Virus record (IMG/VR): IMGVR_UViG_3300042539_000959
Span: 1-21,457 of that record
Direction: 5' to 3' (one strand)
Source of the DNA: a virus
Length of the DNA: 21,457 nt
In this document: in pieces, positions 272-7,206 of the stretch
Position numbering within the stretch: the first letter of the stretch is position 1
How the letters are laid out: the number at the start of each line of letters is the position of its first letter
The notes under the pieces: model-generated
Told to the model about the DNA's origin: nothing
What the model saw: only the letters and a program-made list of their open reading frames with translations
Database searches by the model: none
Made by a program: the position numbers and the translations under genes

Positions 272-859
272 TTAAGCAGTCTTGAGATACCTGTAGACAG
301 TTCTACCGCTGACTCCAAGGATTTTCGCTACTTCATCGATAGATAAACCTTTCTCGATAAGCTTCGGCGCCTTCGATATGTCAACGCCAGCTTTGACAGC
401 GCCCTTTTTCCTACCTTGGTAAATTCCTTTCTCCTTCGCTGCGGCGATACCTGCTGCCTGTCGCTCCCTTCGGGTGTTGGTTTCCATCTCGGCAACAGCA
501 AACAGCACCGCAGCGATAAGCTGACCGATCGTACCAGTGAAATCGATCTGTTGAGAAGTTGAAACCACTCGAATACCTTTCCTGCACCACGAACAGAGGG
601 TGTCTACTCCATCCTGTAGAGATCTCGAGAGTCGATCGAGCTTGTAGACAACCACGGTTTTGATTGCGCCATTGAAGATATCGCGCTGAAGTTGTTCAAG
701 TTGAGGTCTCGCAAGCGTTTCGCCGCTCTCCTTGTCGATGTACCAAATCACCGTATCTGGATTGATACCGTTTCCAGTGAGCCACTTGGTAATCTCGCGC
801 TTTTGACCAGCAAGATTCTGTTCAGCCGTACTAACTCGAACGTAAACCGCCACACACAT
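272..859 (-). CDS. Small serine recombinase (resolvase/invertase family)
   Basis: This 195-residue protein has the usual size and layout of the resolvase/DNA-invertase family, which cuts and rejoins two DNA sites through a phosphoserine link. The nucleophile motif YVRVST gives Ser10 with Arg8. Arg51 lies in a LARPQL stretch and the KLDRLSR motif spans residues 73-79. The long E-helix with RRERQAAGI follows near residue 130. A C-terminal helix-turn-helix (about 172-192) would bind the site. The open frame extends upstream to 1000, but the ATG at 859 is chosen because the catalytic domain begins there and GGAGGT lies six bases before it. It is transcribed away from the phage late genes and has its own likely promoter. 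It lacks the large C-terminal part of serine integrases, so inversion or resolution is more likely than classic integration, though its target is not known. Confidence 0.93.
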   Translation of the reverse strand: MCVAVYVRVSTAEQNLAGQKREITKWLTGNGINPDTVIWYIDKESGETLARPQLEQLQRDIFNGAIKTVVVYKLDRLSRSLQDGVDTLCSWCRKGIRVVSTSQQIDFTGTIGQLIAAVLFAVAEMETNTRRERQAAGIAAAKEKGIYQGRKKGAVKAGVDISKAPKLIEKGLSIDEVAKILGVSGRTVYRYLKTA

Positions 860-864
860 AGCAA

Positions 865-870
865 ACCTCC
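865..870 (-). promoter_or_regulatory. Ribosome-binding site fixing the recombinase start
   Basis: GGAGGT on the - strand lies six bases upstream of the ATG at 859. No comparable site precedes the in-frame ATG at 1000, and the upstream 47 codons do not resemble the family, so this site decides the start. Confidence 0.8.
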
Positions 871-905: not shown

Positions 906-933
906 AGAATATGCGCTCTGTTAGTACAGTCAA
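906..933 (-). promoter_or_regulatory. Putative sigma70-type promoter for the recombinase
   Basis: On the - strand, TTGACT (928-933) and TATTCT (906-911) are separated by 16 bases, about 47 bases upstream of the recombinase ATG. A second TTGACA lies 24 bases further upstream (952-957) but has no good -10 partner. ATGCGC occurs at 895-900 and again at 911-916, overlapping the -10. The match is by eye only. Confidence 0.4.
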
Positions 934-962
934 GTAGGGTGGTATCCAAAATGTCAAGATAG

Positions 963-1167: not shown

Positions 1168-1440
1168 ATGCCGAAGAAATCGCCAGCTTGGACTCGCAAA
1201 GAAGGTCAAAACCCAGAGGGCGGTTTGAACGCTAAGGGTAGAGCCTCTGCCAAAGCGCAAGGGATGAATCTCAAGCCTCCTGTGTCGAAGGAGCAGGCGA
1301 AGAAAAGCCCTGCTGACGCTGCAAGGCGCAAGAAGTTCTGCGCTAGGATGGAAGGCATGAAGCGAGAGTTGACCAGTGAGAAAACTGCTCGCGATCCCAA
1401 AAGCAGAATCAACAAGTCTCTGAAGAAATGGGACTGCTGA
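1168..1440 (+). CDS. Conserved basic phage protein, DUF6321-like
   Basis: This 90-residue protein reads like a family widely found in phage genomes: an N-terminal KSPAWTRKEGQNP block, a GLNAKGRASAKAQGMNLK block, then RRKKFCARMEGM and a C-terminal SRINKSLKKWDC. I recall it as DUF6321, but that name should be confirmed by a profile search. It is very rich in Lys and Arg, with a single Cys in the middle and one at the end, which suggests nucleic-acid or virion-DNA contact. No activity is established. The ATG at 1168 is preferred over the in-frame ATG at 1000 because it follows AAGGGA by eight bases, starts exactly where the conserved region starts, and sits two bases after the stop of the preceding small gene. 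The next gene overlaps its stop. Confidence 0.85.
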   Translation: MPKKSPAWTRKEGQNPEGGLNAKGRASAKAQGMNLKPPVSKEQAKKSPADAARRKKFCARMEGMKRELTSEKTARDPKSRINKSLKKWDC

Positions 1441-1736
1441 TGCGCCGAACGGTTGTTCCTGCTGGATCGAAATACGGAAACTTGACGGTGATTCGCGAAC
1501 ACTACTCGACAGGCAAGCGAAAATTCCTGTGCAAGTGTTCGTGTGGAAACGAAGTCGAGGTGAGGCTCGATCACATACAAAGCGGACACACCTCGTCGTG
1601 CGGAAGTTGCGGAATTGAGCACGCTGGCAAGAAAATGAGCCTCAAGCAATGGGCTTTTGCCTACGGAATCAAGGAATCGACGCTCAGGGCAAGACTCAAG
1701 ACGATGAGCATGCAAGAGGCTCTTGAAAGGCGATGA
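1440..1736 (+). CDS. Zinc-ribbon plus helix-turn-helix DNA-binding protein
   Basis: The 98-residue product has an N-terminal KYGNLTVIRE strand common in phage HNH/AP2-type proteins, then a Cys cluster CKCSCG (Cys31, 33, 35) and SCGSC (Cys54, 57) able to hold zinc. A C-terminal segment (about 66-96, MSLKQWAFAYGIKESTLRAR) looks like the small helix-turn-helix found beside HNH or AP2 nuclease domains. No HNH or AP2 catalytic part is present, so it appears to be a DNA-binding protein with the nuclease missing. The start at 1440 overlaps the previous stop (TGATG). An in-frame ATG at 1428 is possible and would add four residues. It is last in the small-gene cluster and could regulate the divergent promoter region or the late promoter that follows, but this is inferred. 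Confidence 0.75.
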   Translation: MRRTVVPAGSKYGNLTVIREHYSTGKRKFLCKCSCGNEVEVRLDHIQSGHTSSCGSCGIEHAGKKMSLKQWAFAYGIKESTLRARLKTMSMQEALERR

Positions 1737-1742
1737 TGGCTG

Positions 1743-1770
1743 TTGACATCAAAAAGTCGTCGGTTATAGT
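1743..1770 (+). promoter_or_regulatory. Strong consensus promoter upstream of the terminase region
   Basis: A perfect TTGACA (1743-1748) and TATAGT (1765-1770) are separated by 16 bases. This is the best sigma70-like match in the window. Transcription would start near 1777 and meet an intrinsic terminator at 1807-1840. It starts seven bases after the stop codon of the preceding gene. Confidence 0.6.
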
Positions 1771-1776
1771 AATTGC

Positions 1777-1840
1777 ACCTTACTCCATTGTGAGCAAGTC
1801 TCCTGTAGGCTGCGTGACGAAAGTTGCGTAGCCTTTTTTT
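1777..1840 (+). ncRNA. Possible small RNA or leader/attenuator (about 64 nt)
   Basis: This is the short transcript that would run from the promoter at 1743-1770 to the terminator at 1807-1840. It ends in the terminator hairpin and contains no good translated frame of its own. It may be a phage small RNA, or the leader of the late operon where RNA polymerase stops unless an antiterminator acts. The boundaries are predicted from promoter and terminator only. Confidence 0.4.
1807..1840 (+). terminator. Intrinsic terminator before the terminase gene
   Basis: An 11-bp stem with three wobble pairs (arms 1807-1817 and 1824-1834) and a six-base loop is followed by a run of seven T (1834-1840). It closes the small-gene cluster and would also end any transcript begun at the 1743-1770 promoter. 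Confidence 0.87.
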
Positions 1841-1919: not shown

Positions 1920-3833
1920 ATGTCGGTAATGTCATCGCTGTATTACGATCTAGTTCCAAAAGATCCTGTAGAAAACCTCGAGTGGCGTATCGCTTGCAGG
2001 GAGCGAGCCTTGGTCGATGAGCGATTCCGAAGTGCTTTGCTACAAGCATGCGAGACAGACGTTCTGTTCTTCTTCGCGTTTGCCCTATGGGTGCATGAGC
2101 CTAGAGCAAAAGTCAAAACCAAGCCGTTCATCCCGTGGAAGCACCAAGAGGCGGTGATCCTGGCTATGGATGACGCGATCACCGAGGCGATGGCTACTGA
2201 GCATCCAGTGTCGGTGACTATCGAGAAGAGCCGAGCTCAAGGCGGAACCTACACGTACCTCGGAGTGCAGATCCGTAGGGCGCTCACCGAAAAGGGGTTT
2301 TCATCAGGTCTTGTTACTCGAAACGAAAAGACGGTCGATTCGAAGGATCCGTCAGCGGTGATGAACAAGCTTTCGGACATGCTCGACAAGCTGCCGGTAT
2401 GGATGATGGACGGCAAACCATACGAAAGGAACATCACCGACCATACGATTAGGATCCCAAAAACCGATGCGATATGGATCGGGTACTCTGCGACAGCCGA
2501 CGTTGCGCGGGGCGGTAGAACCACGCTCTTTGCGTTCGACGAAGTTGGATCGGAGGAGTTCATTGCCAATGGAATCGATTACAGGATCATGAGCTCGGTG
2601 GCTCACGTTACCAACTGCATATTCCTCTGTTCGACGTTCGGTGCCGATACGGGTGTGTTTTACGAGTCGGCAACCGATCCGGACAACACAAGAGTCTACG
2701 CACTTGATTGGAAGGAGAACCCAGAACACGCAAAGCTGGCTTACATCAAAAAAGACGGTGTTGTGACGGCAATCAACCCAGACGAGCAGGAGCAGGTCGA
2801 AAAGTACGTTTCTACGCACGAGAGGGAGTTGCGAGCGATCGAAAGGAGAGGGCACAAGATTGAAGGCAAGTTCAGATCGCCCTGGTACGACTCTCACTGC
2901 CTGCTTCCTGGGGCTACTCCGCGGTACATCGCACGCGAGCTCGACATGGATGCCAAGGGATCCTCTGGTAAGGTTTTCTCGCCAGATCTGCTCGATCGGA
3001 TGAAGAAAAACCACGGAAAGAAGCCTGTTTGGAGAGGAACGCCGATATTTGACAGCGAAACGCTCGAGCTCAAGGGTTTAGTCCCCAGGGACGATGGGCC
3101 ACTGTCGCTGTGGTTCAAGCCTGGGATAGACAACAGTCCACCACTTGGGCCGTTTGCGATCGCTTGCGACATTGCCTCTGGTGGTGTCGGCGCCTATTCA
3201 TCCAACTCGGTAGCCTCTGGTATCGATTACCGCACAGGCGAAGAAATTCTCGAGTATGTCATCAAGGGGCTTGAGCCACGGCCATTCGCTAGGATGGTCG
3301 TCGGCTTGTGCCTTTGGATGCGCAAAGCATTGCTTGGCTGGGAAGACTCAGGTGTCTCGGGAGGTTTTGCCAAAGAGGTCGTCGAAGTGTGCAACTACGG
3401 AAACGTCTTCTATCGAGACGTTACGCAACTCGGATCGCAGAAAAAGTCCAGGAAGGCTGGTTTTCCTTGCAGGGATGCCGACAAAGCCGATATGTTTGAA
3501 CAGTTTGCCTTGGCGATGGAAAAGGGCGATTACACTCCAAGATCGGAAGAAATGCTCAAGGAGTGCGGCGAGTACGAGTGGGAAAACGGGAGGATCATCC
3601 ACTCTCCAACGAAGAACAAGGGTGCGACCGAAAAGAACCACGGAGACCGAGCGATCGCTGCTGCTGGTGCTTGGTTGGTGTTTTCTGGTGAAAATTTGGA
3701 TTCTAAAGTTGACAGCGATATTGAAAACGGACAAATTCCAGAGTATGGTAGTTTTTTATGGAGAGAACGTCAGGAACGACGAGTAGTCAGTTCTGGCAGC
3801 CCGAAGTTCGGAATACGTGATGTATTGCGATAG
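1920..3833 (+). CDS. terL: Terminase large subunit (DNA-packaging ATPase/nuclease)
   Basis: The 637-residue protein has both halves of a terminase motor. In the ATPase half, a deviant Walker A KSRAQGGT lies at 103-110, Walker B LFAFDE at 203-208, and a coupling motif CSTF at 237-240. In the RNase H-like nuclease half, the metal-binding acids are likely Asp417 (IACDIASGG), Asp476 (GWEDSG) and Asp576 (HGDRAIA). It would drive DNA into the prohead through the portal and cut the concatemer. No small subunit is recognised in the window, so it may lie upstream or be one of the small genes. ATG 1920 follows AAGG by four bases; an in-frame ATG at 1929 is an alternative. The portal gene follows after one small gene, the usual order. 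Confidence 0.96.
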   Translation: MSVMSSLYYDLVPKDPVENLEWRIACRERALVDERFRSALLQACETDVLFFFAFALWVHEPRAKVKTKPFIPWKHQEAVILAMDDAITEAMATEHPVSVTIEKSRAQGGTYTYLGVQIRRALTEKGFSSGLVTRNEKTVDSKDPSAVMNKLSDMLDKLPVWMMDGKPYERNITDHTIRIPKTDAIWIGYSATADVARGGRTTLFAFDEVGSEEFIANGIDYRIMSSVAHVTNCIFLCSTFGADTGVFYESATDPDNTRVYALDWKENPEHAKLAYIKKDGVVTAINPDEQEQVEKYVSTHERELRAIERRGHKIEGKFRSPWYDSHCLLPGATPRYIARELDMDAKGSSGKVFSPDLLDRMKKNHGKKPVWRGTPIFDSETLELKGLVPRDDGPLSLWFKPGIDNSPPLGPFAIACDIASGGVGAYSSNSVASGIDYRTGEEILEYVIKGLEPRPFARMVVGLCLWMRKALLGWEDSGVSGGFAKEVVEVCNYGNVFYRDVTQLGSQKKSRKAGFPCRDADKADMFEQFALAMEKGDYTPRSEEMLKECGEYEWENGRIIHSPTKNKGATEKNHGDRAIAAAGAWLVFSGENLDSKVDSDIENGQIPEYGSFLWRERQERRVVSSGSPKFGIRDVLR

Positions 3834-3868: not shown

Positions 3869-4042
3869 ATGGAAGCCGAGTTGAACGAAAAGCTGGATCA
3901 GGCGATTGCAAAGATGGCAGACCAAGCAAAGGCTCAGCCCGATGCTCAAAAGGCTCTGCATTTTTCTCAGTCTGCTTTGAATCTCGCACAAACAAAGTCG
4001 GTGCTTGAAGGTGCCAAGTCGGCATCTGCGACCAAGAAGTAA
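3869..4042 (+). CDS. Small helical protein between terminase and portal (57 aa)
   Basis: A 57-residue frame starts with ATG at 3869 and ends in TAA at 4042. It sits alone in the gap between terminase and portal, where many phages carry a short helical protein. The sequence is rich in Ala, Lys and Gln and predicted entirely alpha-helical, with a core AQKALHFSQSALNLAQ that resembles such small phage proteins. The upstream GAAAGAAG is a weak ribosome-binding site, so it may depend on translation of terL, which ends 35 bases earlier. Function is unknown. Support comes from position, clean helical composition and lack of any competing frame. Confidence 0.72.
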   Translation: MEAELNEKLDQAIAKMADQAKAQPDAQKALHFSQSALNLAQTKSVLEGAKSASATKK

Positions 4043-4089
4043 ATCCATCGCCAAGTAGGCGAAGTGGTGCAATAGGCTGGAGATAAAAC

Positions 4090-4132
4090 CCAGTCGAAAT
4101 TGACCGGAATAATCCGAAGTTAATTCGACTGG
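4090..4132 (+). promoter_or_regulatory. Stem-loop covering the portal ribosome-binding region
   Basis: A perfect 9-bp inverted repeat (CCAGTCGAA at 4090-4098, TTCGACTGG at 4124-4132) encloses a second small hairpin with CGGA/TCCG arms and an ATAA loop. The outer 3' arm ends two bases before the portal ATG, so folding would hide the ribosome-binding site. It could limit portal translation or be an RNase III processing site, as used in T7-like late mRNAs. No T-run is present. Confidence 0.6.
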
Positions 4133-4134
4133 TA

Positions 4135-5925
4135 ATGTTTGACCTATCAAACCCTGAAAAACGAAGCAGACTTCTAAAAGCGATTCGCTCGTCTCGCGAT
4201 GCGATGGAGCCATTCCGTCGCGTCCGCAAAGAGCTGATCAGGGATTATGTCGGTTCTTGGTACGCCGAATCAGGCGCAGAGAACAAGACTCTGGTCAATC
4301 TGATGAACCAGACGGCACGTATCTATACGGTTGCCCTCGCCGCCAACAATCCGAGCGTGTTGGTGTCTACCTCAAGAATGGAAATGCTTCCGTTCGCAAG
4401 GCGTTTTGAGGTAAATCTCAAGAAGCTTATCAGCGACATGGCTCTCGACAAGACTTTTCGAGCCATCGTTATGGATGCTTTCTTTTGCCTTGGCTGTGGC
4501 GTAGTCATGATGCGAGACACTGACACTCGCTTCCATGGATTGCTTGAAGCCGAGGAAGATGTTTGGCTCGATCCAGGTGAGCCGTGGTTCAATCGAGTGT
4601 CGATCGACGATTTGATACTCGACATGCCAGCACGAGAACTCAGCAAGATGCGGTATTGCGGTCATCGCTACCGAGCTGACTACGAAAAGGTGATGGATGA
4701 GCCTGGGTACGACAAGAAGGTCAAAGACAAGCTGAAACCAACCTCCAGGCAGCATCAGGATTCCGTCGGTGCGGTCAGAGACATTGGATCCGACTGGGGT
4801 AGCGCCGAGGATGACGATCTGAAGGATATGGTTTGGTTGATGGACGTTTGGATCGCGGAGAACAACTCCATTGCGACCATGGTGTGTGATCAGCAAGATT
4901 TACCGCCTCTAATCGAGCGCGATTGGATCGGATCGCAAGCTGGCCCGTACAAGTTCCTGTCTCTAGGGGACACTCCTGACAATGTGATACCAACGTCTCC
5001 GGCGATCAACTTAAAGGGGATGCACGATCTACAGAACCGCTTACACAGGCGAATGGAGGATGATTCTGACTCCCATCGCAAGGTGAATATCTATCCACCA
5101 GGGATGGAAGACGACGCGGAGCGAATCAGGACATCAGAGCGCAATGGTTGGTACAGAGGTCGAAGTCCAGATCAGATCAAGCAGTTTGAGGTGGGTGGTA
5201 TCGACCAAAGAGACATGGCTTTGGCGACCTTCTTGCAGTCGGAATACGATCGATTCGCTGGAAACCTTCAGGCAATGGGTGGGCTTGGGCAGCAGGCATC
5301 GACACTCGGTCAGGAAGAACTGATTCACGGAAACGTATCGAAGAACGTAGCGGACATGCGAATGTCGGTAGTTTCGTTCGCTTCGGATTGCATCTTGGAT
5401 CTTGGTCGTCTTATGTGGGAGGATTCGACACTTGAGCTCAAAACCTCTATGCCTGTTGGTAACACTGGTATCGAAGTTAATTCAGATTGGACTCCAGGTT
5501 ACAGGGAAGGAATCTTTGATGATTATGAGTTCCGAGTGGAACCATACTCCATGGTTTTCAAGACTCCCGAGCAGAAACTCCAAGAACTCTTTCAGGTGTT
5601 GCGTGAGATCGCACCGCTTTGGCCGATGTTCCAGGCATCGGGAGCCTCGATTGACGCAGAGGCAATTGTTGACGAGATCGCAAGACTAAAGAACCGACCA
5701 GAGTTCAAGCGATTCATCACGTTTGCGAACCCTTCGGACATGCTAGGTGGCGACGAAAACACGATTCGCCAGTCTCCGACGACAACCAGGGAGACAATCC
5801 GAAGGAACATCAGTAGTGGTGGCACAGAAGCCGCCAGGAACAACGCATTGATACAAACCTTGATGGGCGGAAACCCGCAAATCAATTCGCAACAAAGAAA
5901 CTCGATGTTGCAGGGGGCTGGATGA
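4135..5925 (+). CDS. Portal protein
   Basis: This 596-residue protein follows the terminase and precedes scaffold and capsid genes, the standard portal position. It has the expected long helical N-terminus, a polar acidic middle and a Gln/Asn-rich flexible C-terminus. A stretch near 355-410 (SPDQIKQFEVGG, then LATFLQSEYDRFAGNLQAMGG) resembles the stem/crown helices of portals in short-tailed phages. The portal is a dodecameric ring at one capsid vertex through which DNA passes and to which the neck proteins bind. The start at 4135 has only a weak ribosome-binding site (ACTGG), buried in the stem-loop just upstream. The length suits a podovirus-type portal. Identification is by order and overall sequence character, since portals lack short diagnostic motifs. 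Confidence 0.88.
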   Translation: MFDLSNPEKRSRLLKAIRSSRDAMEPFRRVRKELIRDYVGSWYAESGAENKTLVNLMNQTARIYTVALAANNPSVLVSTSRMEMLPFARRFEVNLKKLISDMALDKTFRAIVMDAFFCLGCGVVMMRDTDTRFHGLLEAEEDVWLDPGEPWFNRVSIDDLILDMPARELSKMRYCGHRYRADYEKVMDEPGYDKKVKDKLKPTSRQHQDSVGAVRDIGSDWGSAEDDDLKDMVWLMDVWIAENNSIATMVCDQQDLPPLIERDWIGSQAGPYKFLSLGDTPDNVIPTSPAINLKGMHDLQNRLHRRMEDDSDSHRKVNIYPPGMEDDAERIRTSERNGWYRGRSPDQIKQFEVGGIDQRDMALATFLQSEYDRFAGNLQAMGGLGQQASTLGQEELIHGNVSKNVADMRMSVVSFASDCILDLGRLMWEDSTLELKTSMPVGNTGIEVNSDWTPGYREGIFDDYEFRVEPYSMVFKTPEQKLQELFQVLREIAPLWPMFQASGASIDAEAIVDEIARLKNRPEFKRFITFANPSDMLGGDENTIRQSPTTTRETIRRNISSGGTEAARNNALIQTLMGGNPQINSQQRNSMLQGAG

Positions 5926-6248
5926 TGAGCACAGTCAAATACAAGTACAAAGGCAAGTTTGTCACCGAGCAAGAGCTTGAGAAGCTTGTTCCTCGGAAGC
6001 CAGATTGGCTCGAGAGACCAGCCATGGCGGCAAACACCTACACCGAGCACAACCCGCTTGTTTCAGATGGGTGCGGTGTCATGAAAAGCCAAGTGGGCGA
6101 AACTCGAGATCTGATCAAAAAGCACAGGATTCAAGGTGCCGCTGTGATGGATAGCGGTCAGGTGCGATTCACAAGTAGACGCGCACGCAACGAATTTCTG
6201 CGAATGCGCGGTTTCAGGGATTTAGACGGAGGCTATGGGGATGAGTGA
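5922..6248 (+). CDS. Small conserved phage protein ending in DGGYGD
   Basis: The 108-residue product has a basic N-terminus (KYKYKGKFV) and a C-terminal half of the type found in small proteins lying between portal and scaffold in many phages: a CGV...QV.E.R segment, FTSRRARNEFLRMRG and a final DLDGGYGDE. Relatives are sometimes called FmdB-like regulators when a zinc ribbon precedes this part. Here there is only one Cys, so no zinc ribbon is evident and that label should not be transferred. ATG 5922 overlaps the portal stop; ATG 5925 is equally possible and better spaced from AGGGGG at 5912-5917. It overlaps the next gene as well. Its role is unknown; head assembly is the natural guess from position. 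Confidence 0.75.
   Translation: MMSTVKYKYKGKFVTEQELEKLVPRKPDWLERPAMAANTYTEHNPLVSDGCGVMKSQVGETRDLIKKHRIQGAAVMDSGQVRFTSRRARNEFLRMRGFRDLDGGYGDE
6228..6232 (+). promoter_or_regulatory. Ribosome-binding site deciding the scaffold start
   Basis: GGAGG ends two bases before the ATG at 6235 but eight bases before the in-frame ATG at 6241, so initiation at 6241 is preferred. Confidence 0.7.
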
Positions 6249-7206
6249 TACTGTCGAATTGAACGAAGACATGACGAGCGATGAAATCAAGGAATACGCG
6301 AACACTGTCACTGAAGAGGTGGCAAGAGAGCGTATGGGTGATCGCAAGTCGAATGCGGAAATCATCACTGACACCGCATCGATCAACAAAACACCTGCTG
6401 AGGAAAATTCCAGCAGTTCCGCCGATGATGATGATCAAGGCGAGGTTTCCGGCGACGAGTCGCGTGCCCCCAAGTGGGTCAACGACAAGGTGATAGCCGA
6501 GGTTGCCGCGTATGGCATTGACGAGTCTGACTTGTCGGATTTTGCCAGCCGCGAGGAGTTGGATAAGGCTTTGAAATTGCTTGACAAGAAGGCGTTCGAG
6601 GCTGGACGCAAGGCGTTGGCTGACAGCGACGAAGGCTCGACTCGAAACGAGAAAGGTCAATTCAGCAAGAAAGAAGCCAAGCAAGAAGATGCTGCCGGAA
6701 AGGATAGCAATCGGTATGAGGTTTCGCTTAGCAAGGATCTCTATGACGATGAGATCGTCGACGAGTTTACTCGATTGCGTGATCATTACGAATCACGACT
6801 TTCGGTGCTCGAAGCGAGGTTTGCTGATGTGAACGCTCAAGCCGAAGAGCAACAGTTCGACAGCTACGTCGATCAACTTGGGTTTTCCGATCTTTTCGGG
6901 AAAACCGGGAGTGAATCCGACGAAGAACTCGAGCGGCGCAGAGAACTTCACGTTGCTGTCAAAGCGCAATTGATTGGTCTTGAGCGCCTCGGTCGTCCTG
7001 CGGAACTAAACGATAAGCTAGTTGGTCGTGTAGCCAACATGGTTTTCGCGGACGAAATCACCAAGAAACGTTTGAAACAGCAGACCAAAAAAGTCTCAAG
7101 GCAGAGCCAGCTTCGTCAGGGTGGAAGCCCGACAAGACCTCAGCCTCCACGCGAAGATCCTCGCGAGGAAGCAGATCGGCTCTATCGAGAGCTCGAAAGG
7201 TCGTAA
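6241..7206 (+). CDS. Scaffold-like head assembly protein
   Basis: This 321-residue protein directly precedes the major capsid gene. It is highly charged, with an acidic, disordered N-terminal third (including an SSSSADDDD run), a helical middle with RLRDHYESRLSVLEARFADV likely to form a coiled coil, and a basic, Arg/Gln/Pro-rich C-terminus. This is the profile of phage scaffolding proteins, whose basic C-terminal helix contacts the capsid protein while the rest guides shell assembly and is then expelled or cleaved. There is no protease motif in it. The chosen start at 6241 is set by GGAGG at 6228-6232. It overlaps the preceding gene by eight bases, and the capsid gene follows after 19 bases. 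Assignment is by position and composition. Confidence 0.8.
   Translation: MSDTVELNEDMTSDEIKEYANTVTEEVARERMGDRKSNAEIITDTASINKTPAEENSSSSADDDDQGEVSGDESRAPKWVNDKVIAEVAAYGIDESDLSDFASREELDKALKLLDKKAFEAGRKALADSDEGSTRNEKGQFSKKEAKQEDAAGKDSNRYEVSLSKDLYDDEIVDEFTRLRDHYESRLSVLEARFADVNAQAEEQQFDSYVDQLGFSDLFGKTGSESDEELERRRELHVAVKAQLIGLERLGRPAELNDKLVGRVANMVFADEITKKRLKQQTKKVSRQSQLRQGGSPTRPQPPREDPREEADRLYRELERS

Follow-up and report, generated by a model that had tools for sequence, protein, structure and literature searches.

A putative trans-acting small RNA gene at the head of the late operon in a group of uncultured phages

Upstream of the late operon of phage lambda, the promoter pR' is followed by the terminator tR', and the product of this arrangement is a short RNA, 6S. 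The 6S RNA has been reported as an Hfq-dependent phage small RNA (sRNA), its function unexplored (PMC12197685). VpdS of phage VP882 and PreS of lambda are phage-encoded RNAs that are thought to base-pair in trans, and VpdS affects both phage and host mRNAs (PMC12197685). The sar RNA of P22 is antisense to ant and blocks translation initiation of this phage gene (PMC12197685). Trans-acting phage sRNAs are few and are known mostly from enterobacterial and Vibrio phages; our literature search found no paper on the RNA described here or on phage sRNAs in Planctomycetes.

The locus analyzed here resembles that of lambda 6S in its genomic place, and adds to such a leader a conserved pairing core with evident predicted targets in the phage. 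Comparison among relatives makes it probable, with good confidence, that the element encodes a trans-acting phage sRNA of about 64 nt that represses translation of non-structural genes. Like VpdS and PreS, the RNA is encoded in a phage genome and is proposed to base-pair in trans. However, those two bind Hfq, come from proteobacterial phages and have tested targets, whereas this RNA has a single core complementary to the Shine-Dalgarno regions of several genes of its own phage, lies at the start of the late operon and belongs to no Rfam family. It is a short phage RNA, as are sar and lambda OOP, and its target position is similar to that of sar, but the genes of sar and OOP overlap their target and are read from the other strand; the predicted targets of the present RNA lie elsewhere, are several in number and could pair over 8-13 bases. 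No ORF of at least 40 codons in the window starts at an antisense copy of the core, as a cis-encoded antisense RNA of the sar or OOP type would have it, and the predicted targets are located from 0.5 to tens of kilobases away from the RNA gene. The RNA is a new family of a generally known kind.

The window, by which we mean the whole 21,457-nucleotide stretch of viral DNA that was analyzed, contains the RNA gene between two protein-coding genes on the same strand:

1428..1736, plus strand: HNH endonuclease-like gene, directly upstream of the RNA gene and outside it
1743..1748, plus strand: -35 element TTGACA of the small RNA promoter, seen in the sequence and kept in relatives
1765..1770, plus strand: -10 element TATAGT of the small RNA promoter, separated from the -35 element by a 16-base spacer
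1777..1840, plus strand: predicted small RNA of about 64 nt, its start placed from the position of the -10 element
1779..1794, plus strand: 5' stem-loop CUUAC-UCCAUU-GUGAG, which folds in every type
1794..1803, plus strand: conserved core GCAAGUCUCC (GCAAAUCUCC in most types), the predicted pairing region
1807..1840, plus strand: intrinsic terminator, a 12-pair hairpin (1807-1834) with T7 (1834-1840), supported by covariation
1920..3833, plus strand: terL (PHROG terminase large subunit, 3.4e-6), the first gene past the terminator and not among the predicted targets

The promoter at 1743-1770 matches 11 of 12 consensus bases, compared to 9 for the runner-up in the window, so that the TTGACA-N16-TATAGT promoter of the initial annotation is confirmed as the best of the window by two matches. 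The terminator is also located where it had been placed (1807-1840) and ends in the seven T described, but its hairpin has 12 pairs rather than 11. Because counts of such patterns in a single sequence are at chance level (15 promoter-like sites across the window against 13.2 expected, and 22 terminator-like sites against 19.4), conservation is the test against chance. By that test the arrangement first noticed, a promoter followed after 37 bases by a terminator before terL, is real, being conserved in about 35 related viral contigs.

Relatives were gathered by a TerL search, which gave 66 loci from viral contigs, and a TerL alignment added more; the element was then located upstream of terL and by pattern scans of the viral collection. 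Those scans also returned many chance matches, consisting of coding sequence without a -10 element or terminator, which were discarded by inspection or with a covariance model. The covariance model recovers the tested representatives and found no other convincing copy; one match in L031/L172/L253 (24 bits), downstream of terL, was rejected as an ordinary-looking terminator that lacks the core. A degenerate copy of the RNA gene is present in L266. In the relatives, the element reads TTGACA, 16-18 bases, a -10 element, a short hairpin, GCAAATCTCC and a terminator, and the RNA genes fall into 11 sequence types:

Type A: the window, L002-L008, L026 and L027; core GCAAGTCTCC
Type B: L009-L011
Type C: L012
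Type D: L013-L022
Type E: L028
Type F: L034-L036 and L038
Type G: L041 and L042
Type H: L044 and L048
Type I: L100
Two further types, found later: L224 and L229

The -35 element is TTGACA in all other types except one, L224, where it is TTGACT. Comparison with related phages for conserved structure had been proposed as a check, and the layout of promoter, core and terminator does recur upstream of terL, the intervening sequence having otherwise diverged; the promoter spacer and the sequence of the terminator differ between types. The HNH endonuclease-like gene upstream is replaced by other sequence in L005, L006, L016 and L017, and L038 has two genes separating terL from the RNA gene. The element is therefore a unit of its own. 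Two TerL relatives, L170 and L171 (67% and 51% identity), occur in Pirellulaceae and Planctomycetaceae MAG contigs; solely through these two Planctomycetota contigs is a planctomycete host suggested, and the phage group probably infects Planctomycetota.

The predicted 64-nt RNA of the window folds with -23.2 kcal/mol (z -3.95), and none of 200 dinucleotide shuffles was as good. Across types the RNA is 57-69 nt long and always has the same architecture, in which a short 5' hairpin and the terminator hairpin flank an unpaired core, GCAA(A/G)UCUCC. In the 5' stem, a U-G pair of the window is C-G in L003, and the 5' hairpin of type F has GCC/GGC in place of GCUC/GAGC. The terminator helix is paired in 97.2% of cells although its arm sequences vary between types, with compensatory changes on both sides in 10 of its 12 pairs; its covariation score of 0.646 compares with 0.358 for shuffled alignments, and was reached by none of 500 shuffles. 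Among 12 representatives, the core is invariant but for one base. Folding of these 12, which cover all types, leaves AA(A/G)UCUCC mostly unpaired (mean probability 0.78-1.00), and in the window AAGUCUCC at 1796-1803 is predicted to be unpaired with a mean probability of 0.92.

It is scarcely credible that the region instead encodes a small protein. An ORF of 32 aa (1733-1831) does exist, overlapping the stop codon of the upstream gene and ending in the terminator stem. However, it was found in type A only, has no family match and starts upstream of the promoter's own transcription start site. The conserved core also falls in different reading frames in types A, B and D and is thus not coding. 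The element is accordingly best read as an RNA gene and not as a small ORF. The covariance-model search against known RNA families that the initial annotation had called for found no Rfam family at gathering or relaxed thresholds. The best matches, SdsR_RyeB and OmrA-B, reached 16.0 and 14.2 bits against gathering scores of 38 and 40; this RNA, which is a member of neither, is like them only in the general layout of a terminator hairpin at the end. A search for tRNA and tmRNA found none.

Sequences complementary to the core make up the Shine-Dalgarno region of further genes in the same phages, in the form GGAGATTTGC-N1-4-ATG. In 14 records with the RNA, the core complement GGAGAYTTGY occurs in 47 copies, compared to 2 for the reversed control, and most copies outside the RNA genes lie 8-15 bases before a start codon. 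With gene calls made as simple ORFs, no other GGAG context is as frequent at the gene starts of RNA-carrying phages as GGAGATTT; it is found there at 51 of 595 GGAG starts, as opposed to 3 of 357 in relatives that lack the RNA (Fisher p 5e-8, a value that ignores relatedness). When one record per type is taken, the ATTT continuation of GGAG is found at 41 of 460 starts. The complement is also distributed unevenly within genomes: it is present at 1 of 95 GGAG starts in the late operon (the 21 kb downstream of the RNA gene) versus 51 of 365 elsewhere (p 8e-5, again ignoring relatedness). The bases beyond GGAG are explained by the core and not by 16S rRNA. Predicted targets include the serine recombinase (resolvase), a phage exonuclease, a YqaJ recombinase, a MazG-like protein, an SbcC-like ATPase and unknowns. 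In L224/G026, a type that stood outside the formation of this idea, GGAGATTTGC precedes the exonuclease and GGAGATTTTC the recombinase.

A count of duplex energies over all gene starts did not separate the real core from shuffled cores in most genomes; this count is uninformative because each gene offers many alternative starts, which yield low energies by chance. Duplex energies are informative only for ranking known targets, and the signal lies in exact complementarity at the Shine-Dalgarno position. In a different reading, the RNA would mainly hit host mRNAs, mimicking the 16S anti-Shine-Dalgarno sequence CUCC to damp host translation, and the phage sites would be by-products. The core does contain CUCC, but by-products would not yield GGAGATTTGC with its bases beyond the Shine-Dalgarno match. 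Nor would they yield the contrast between late and other genes, or that with phages lacking the RNA, and we consider this reading improbable.

The window, which holds mostly late genes, has one predicted target, the divergent recombinase:

272..859, minus strand: serine recombinase (resolvase/invertase) of 195 aa, divergent neighbor of the RNA gene and predicted target (Pfam Resolvase 1.3e-34; PHROG DNA invertase 4.6e-52)
857..870, minus strand: predicted target site GGAGGTTTGCTATG, comprising the ribosome-binding site and start codon of the recombinase

This site forms 13 contiguous pairs with the RNA, two of them G-U, at -18.5 kcal/mol, the best duplex among the 24 genes called in the window. 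A complement of 8-10 bases is kept at relatives of the recombinase in types A, B, C, E, F, H and I and in L224, if G-U is allowed in type A. The type D recombinase has GGAGATATTTCGATG, with 6 contiguous pairs only. In L227-like phages, GGAGATTTGCGATG is kept at the recombinase, and no RNA gene was found in the 73 kb record; at 1050-1130 of L227 two sites, GGAGACTTG and GGAGATTTGC, lie 27 bases apart before the recombinase. Separately, a box GGATACCACCCTACTTGAC, which may be an operator, is located at the -35 element of the recombinase promoter (929-950, minus strand, in the window); slightly altered versions of it are present in types A, B, E, H and I.

The one variable base of the core offers a further comparison. 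Type A has G at this place (AAGUCUCC) where other types have A (AAAUCUCC). Of the starts that have a site, 3 of 11 carry GGAGACTT in the type A record G004 and 0 of 33 in other types (p 0.012), with few independent events behind this value. The exonuclease and the GIPGVP gene have GGAGACTT in type A, and their orthologues in phages with the core AAAUCUCC read GGAGATTTGC. Most type A targets retain U opposite the changed base, and pairing there would need G-U. A look by eye at whether the base before GGAG changes with the RNA is suggestive at most.

By itself, a base change shared by core and targets would equally suit a protein of altered specificity, and it may be asked whether the 10-mer serves a phage regulator as an operator in the DNA, its overlap with ribosome-binding sites and its presence in the RNA gene being coincidental. 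Such an operator would also be a recurring non-coding sequence in one orientation, as is found here. However, the excess of GGAGATTT lies at start codons, where 51 of 83 copies have the spacing of a Shine-Dalgarno sequence, and a considerable share of the other copies are the RNA genes themselves. In type F the 5' hairpin is kept as RNA though the DNA half-palindrome GAG..CTC is lost, and in type A both U and C occur opposite the core G, as RNA pairing would allow. An operator is thus very unlikely to account for these sites.

The preferred reading remains that of a trans-acting sRNA, and the small RNA gene proposed in the initial annotation is backed by the conserved architecture, the compensatory changes and the unpaired core with its matching target sites; the targets themselves had been missed. 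The gene stands alone, with its own promoter and intrinsic terminator, and its conserved, accessible region is complementary to several mRNAs encoded elsewhere. In the mechanism that we propose, a strong sigma-70-type promoter would start the RNA and the intrinsic terminator would end it just before terL. The unpaired core, 5'-GCAA(A/G)UCUCC, would be presented between the two hairpins and would pair with GGAGAUUUGC, the Shine-Dalgarno region plus adjacent bases, in the mRNAs of several non-structural genes, among them the divergent serine recombinase, the exonuclease, and other DNA-metabolism and unknown genes. Such pairing would mask the ribosome-binding site, and the effect, as predicted from the sites, is most likely repression of translation rather than activation. 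Late structural genes, which have no site, would be spared. We infer transcription of the small RNA from its predicted signals. The likeliest timing appears to be an early-to-late shut-off; constitutive repression in a carrier state is also possible, and is conceivable because the promoter is close to consensus.

The other half of the original interpretation was a late-operon leader, in which, as at lambda pR'-tR', a late promoter is followed by an attenuator terminator that a phage antiterminator opens so that terL and the head genes are expressed; the short RNA would then be merely the terminated leader. As in lambda, promoter and terminator lie directly upstream of the late operon, whose genes have the same orientation. 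The element is directly before terL in most types, with as few as about 24 nt between terminator and start codon. A pure leader, though, would leave unexplained the invariant unpaired core and its complement at the ribosome-binding sites of other genes. Moreover, the -35/-10 spacer and the terminator sequence are without conservation, no Q-type antitermination site was recognized, and in L038 the element is separated from terL by two other genes. We regard this explanation as unlikely in its pure form, and retain a late-leader role as a possible second role of the sRNA, with which it is compatible. The gap of about 24 nt in type D leaves no room for a promoter of terL's own, so that terL must there be read through this terminator, either from this promoter or from one further upstream. 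Position and the lack of room in several types suggest that the RNA doubles as the late operon's terminated leader.

If both roles hold, an RNA-based switch from early to late expression can be tentatively envisaged. Firing of the late promoter would give packaging and head genes by read-through, together with a short RNA that, acting at Shine-Dalgarno sequences, shuts off early genes of recombination and DNA metabolism, and the multi-gene regulon would be kept through a shared 10-base site. One 64-base RNA, in place of a repressor protein, would then shut off a set of the phage's genes. Both the RNA and its target list were derived purely by comparing uncultured phages; the core and sites are short and known, which makes the idea directly testable in a surrogate bacterium. 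In other phages, too, the short RNAs made from terminated late leaders, lambda 6S among them, may be worth examining for functions.

Some minor observations concern the genes and sequence around the element. The 146-aa protein encoded at 1000-1440 of the window, of unknown function, has several PHROG family matches, which in longer families fall at the C-terminal end, and at its 3' end the gene is about 75% identical to cyanophage genes at the DNA level. Between the terminator and the start of terL, a second long hairpin (1850-1909) is absent from L007, L008 and L027; in the near-identical phages L003, L004, L005 and L026 both of its arms are swapped together, from CGGGAAC/GUUCCC to ACCAAC/GUUGGU, with pairing kept. 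The TerL match is about 2.8 kb long, rather than 1.9 kb, in L044 and L048 (TerL at 4001-6808) and also in L029 and L052, which suggests an insertion in terL, either an intron or an intein.
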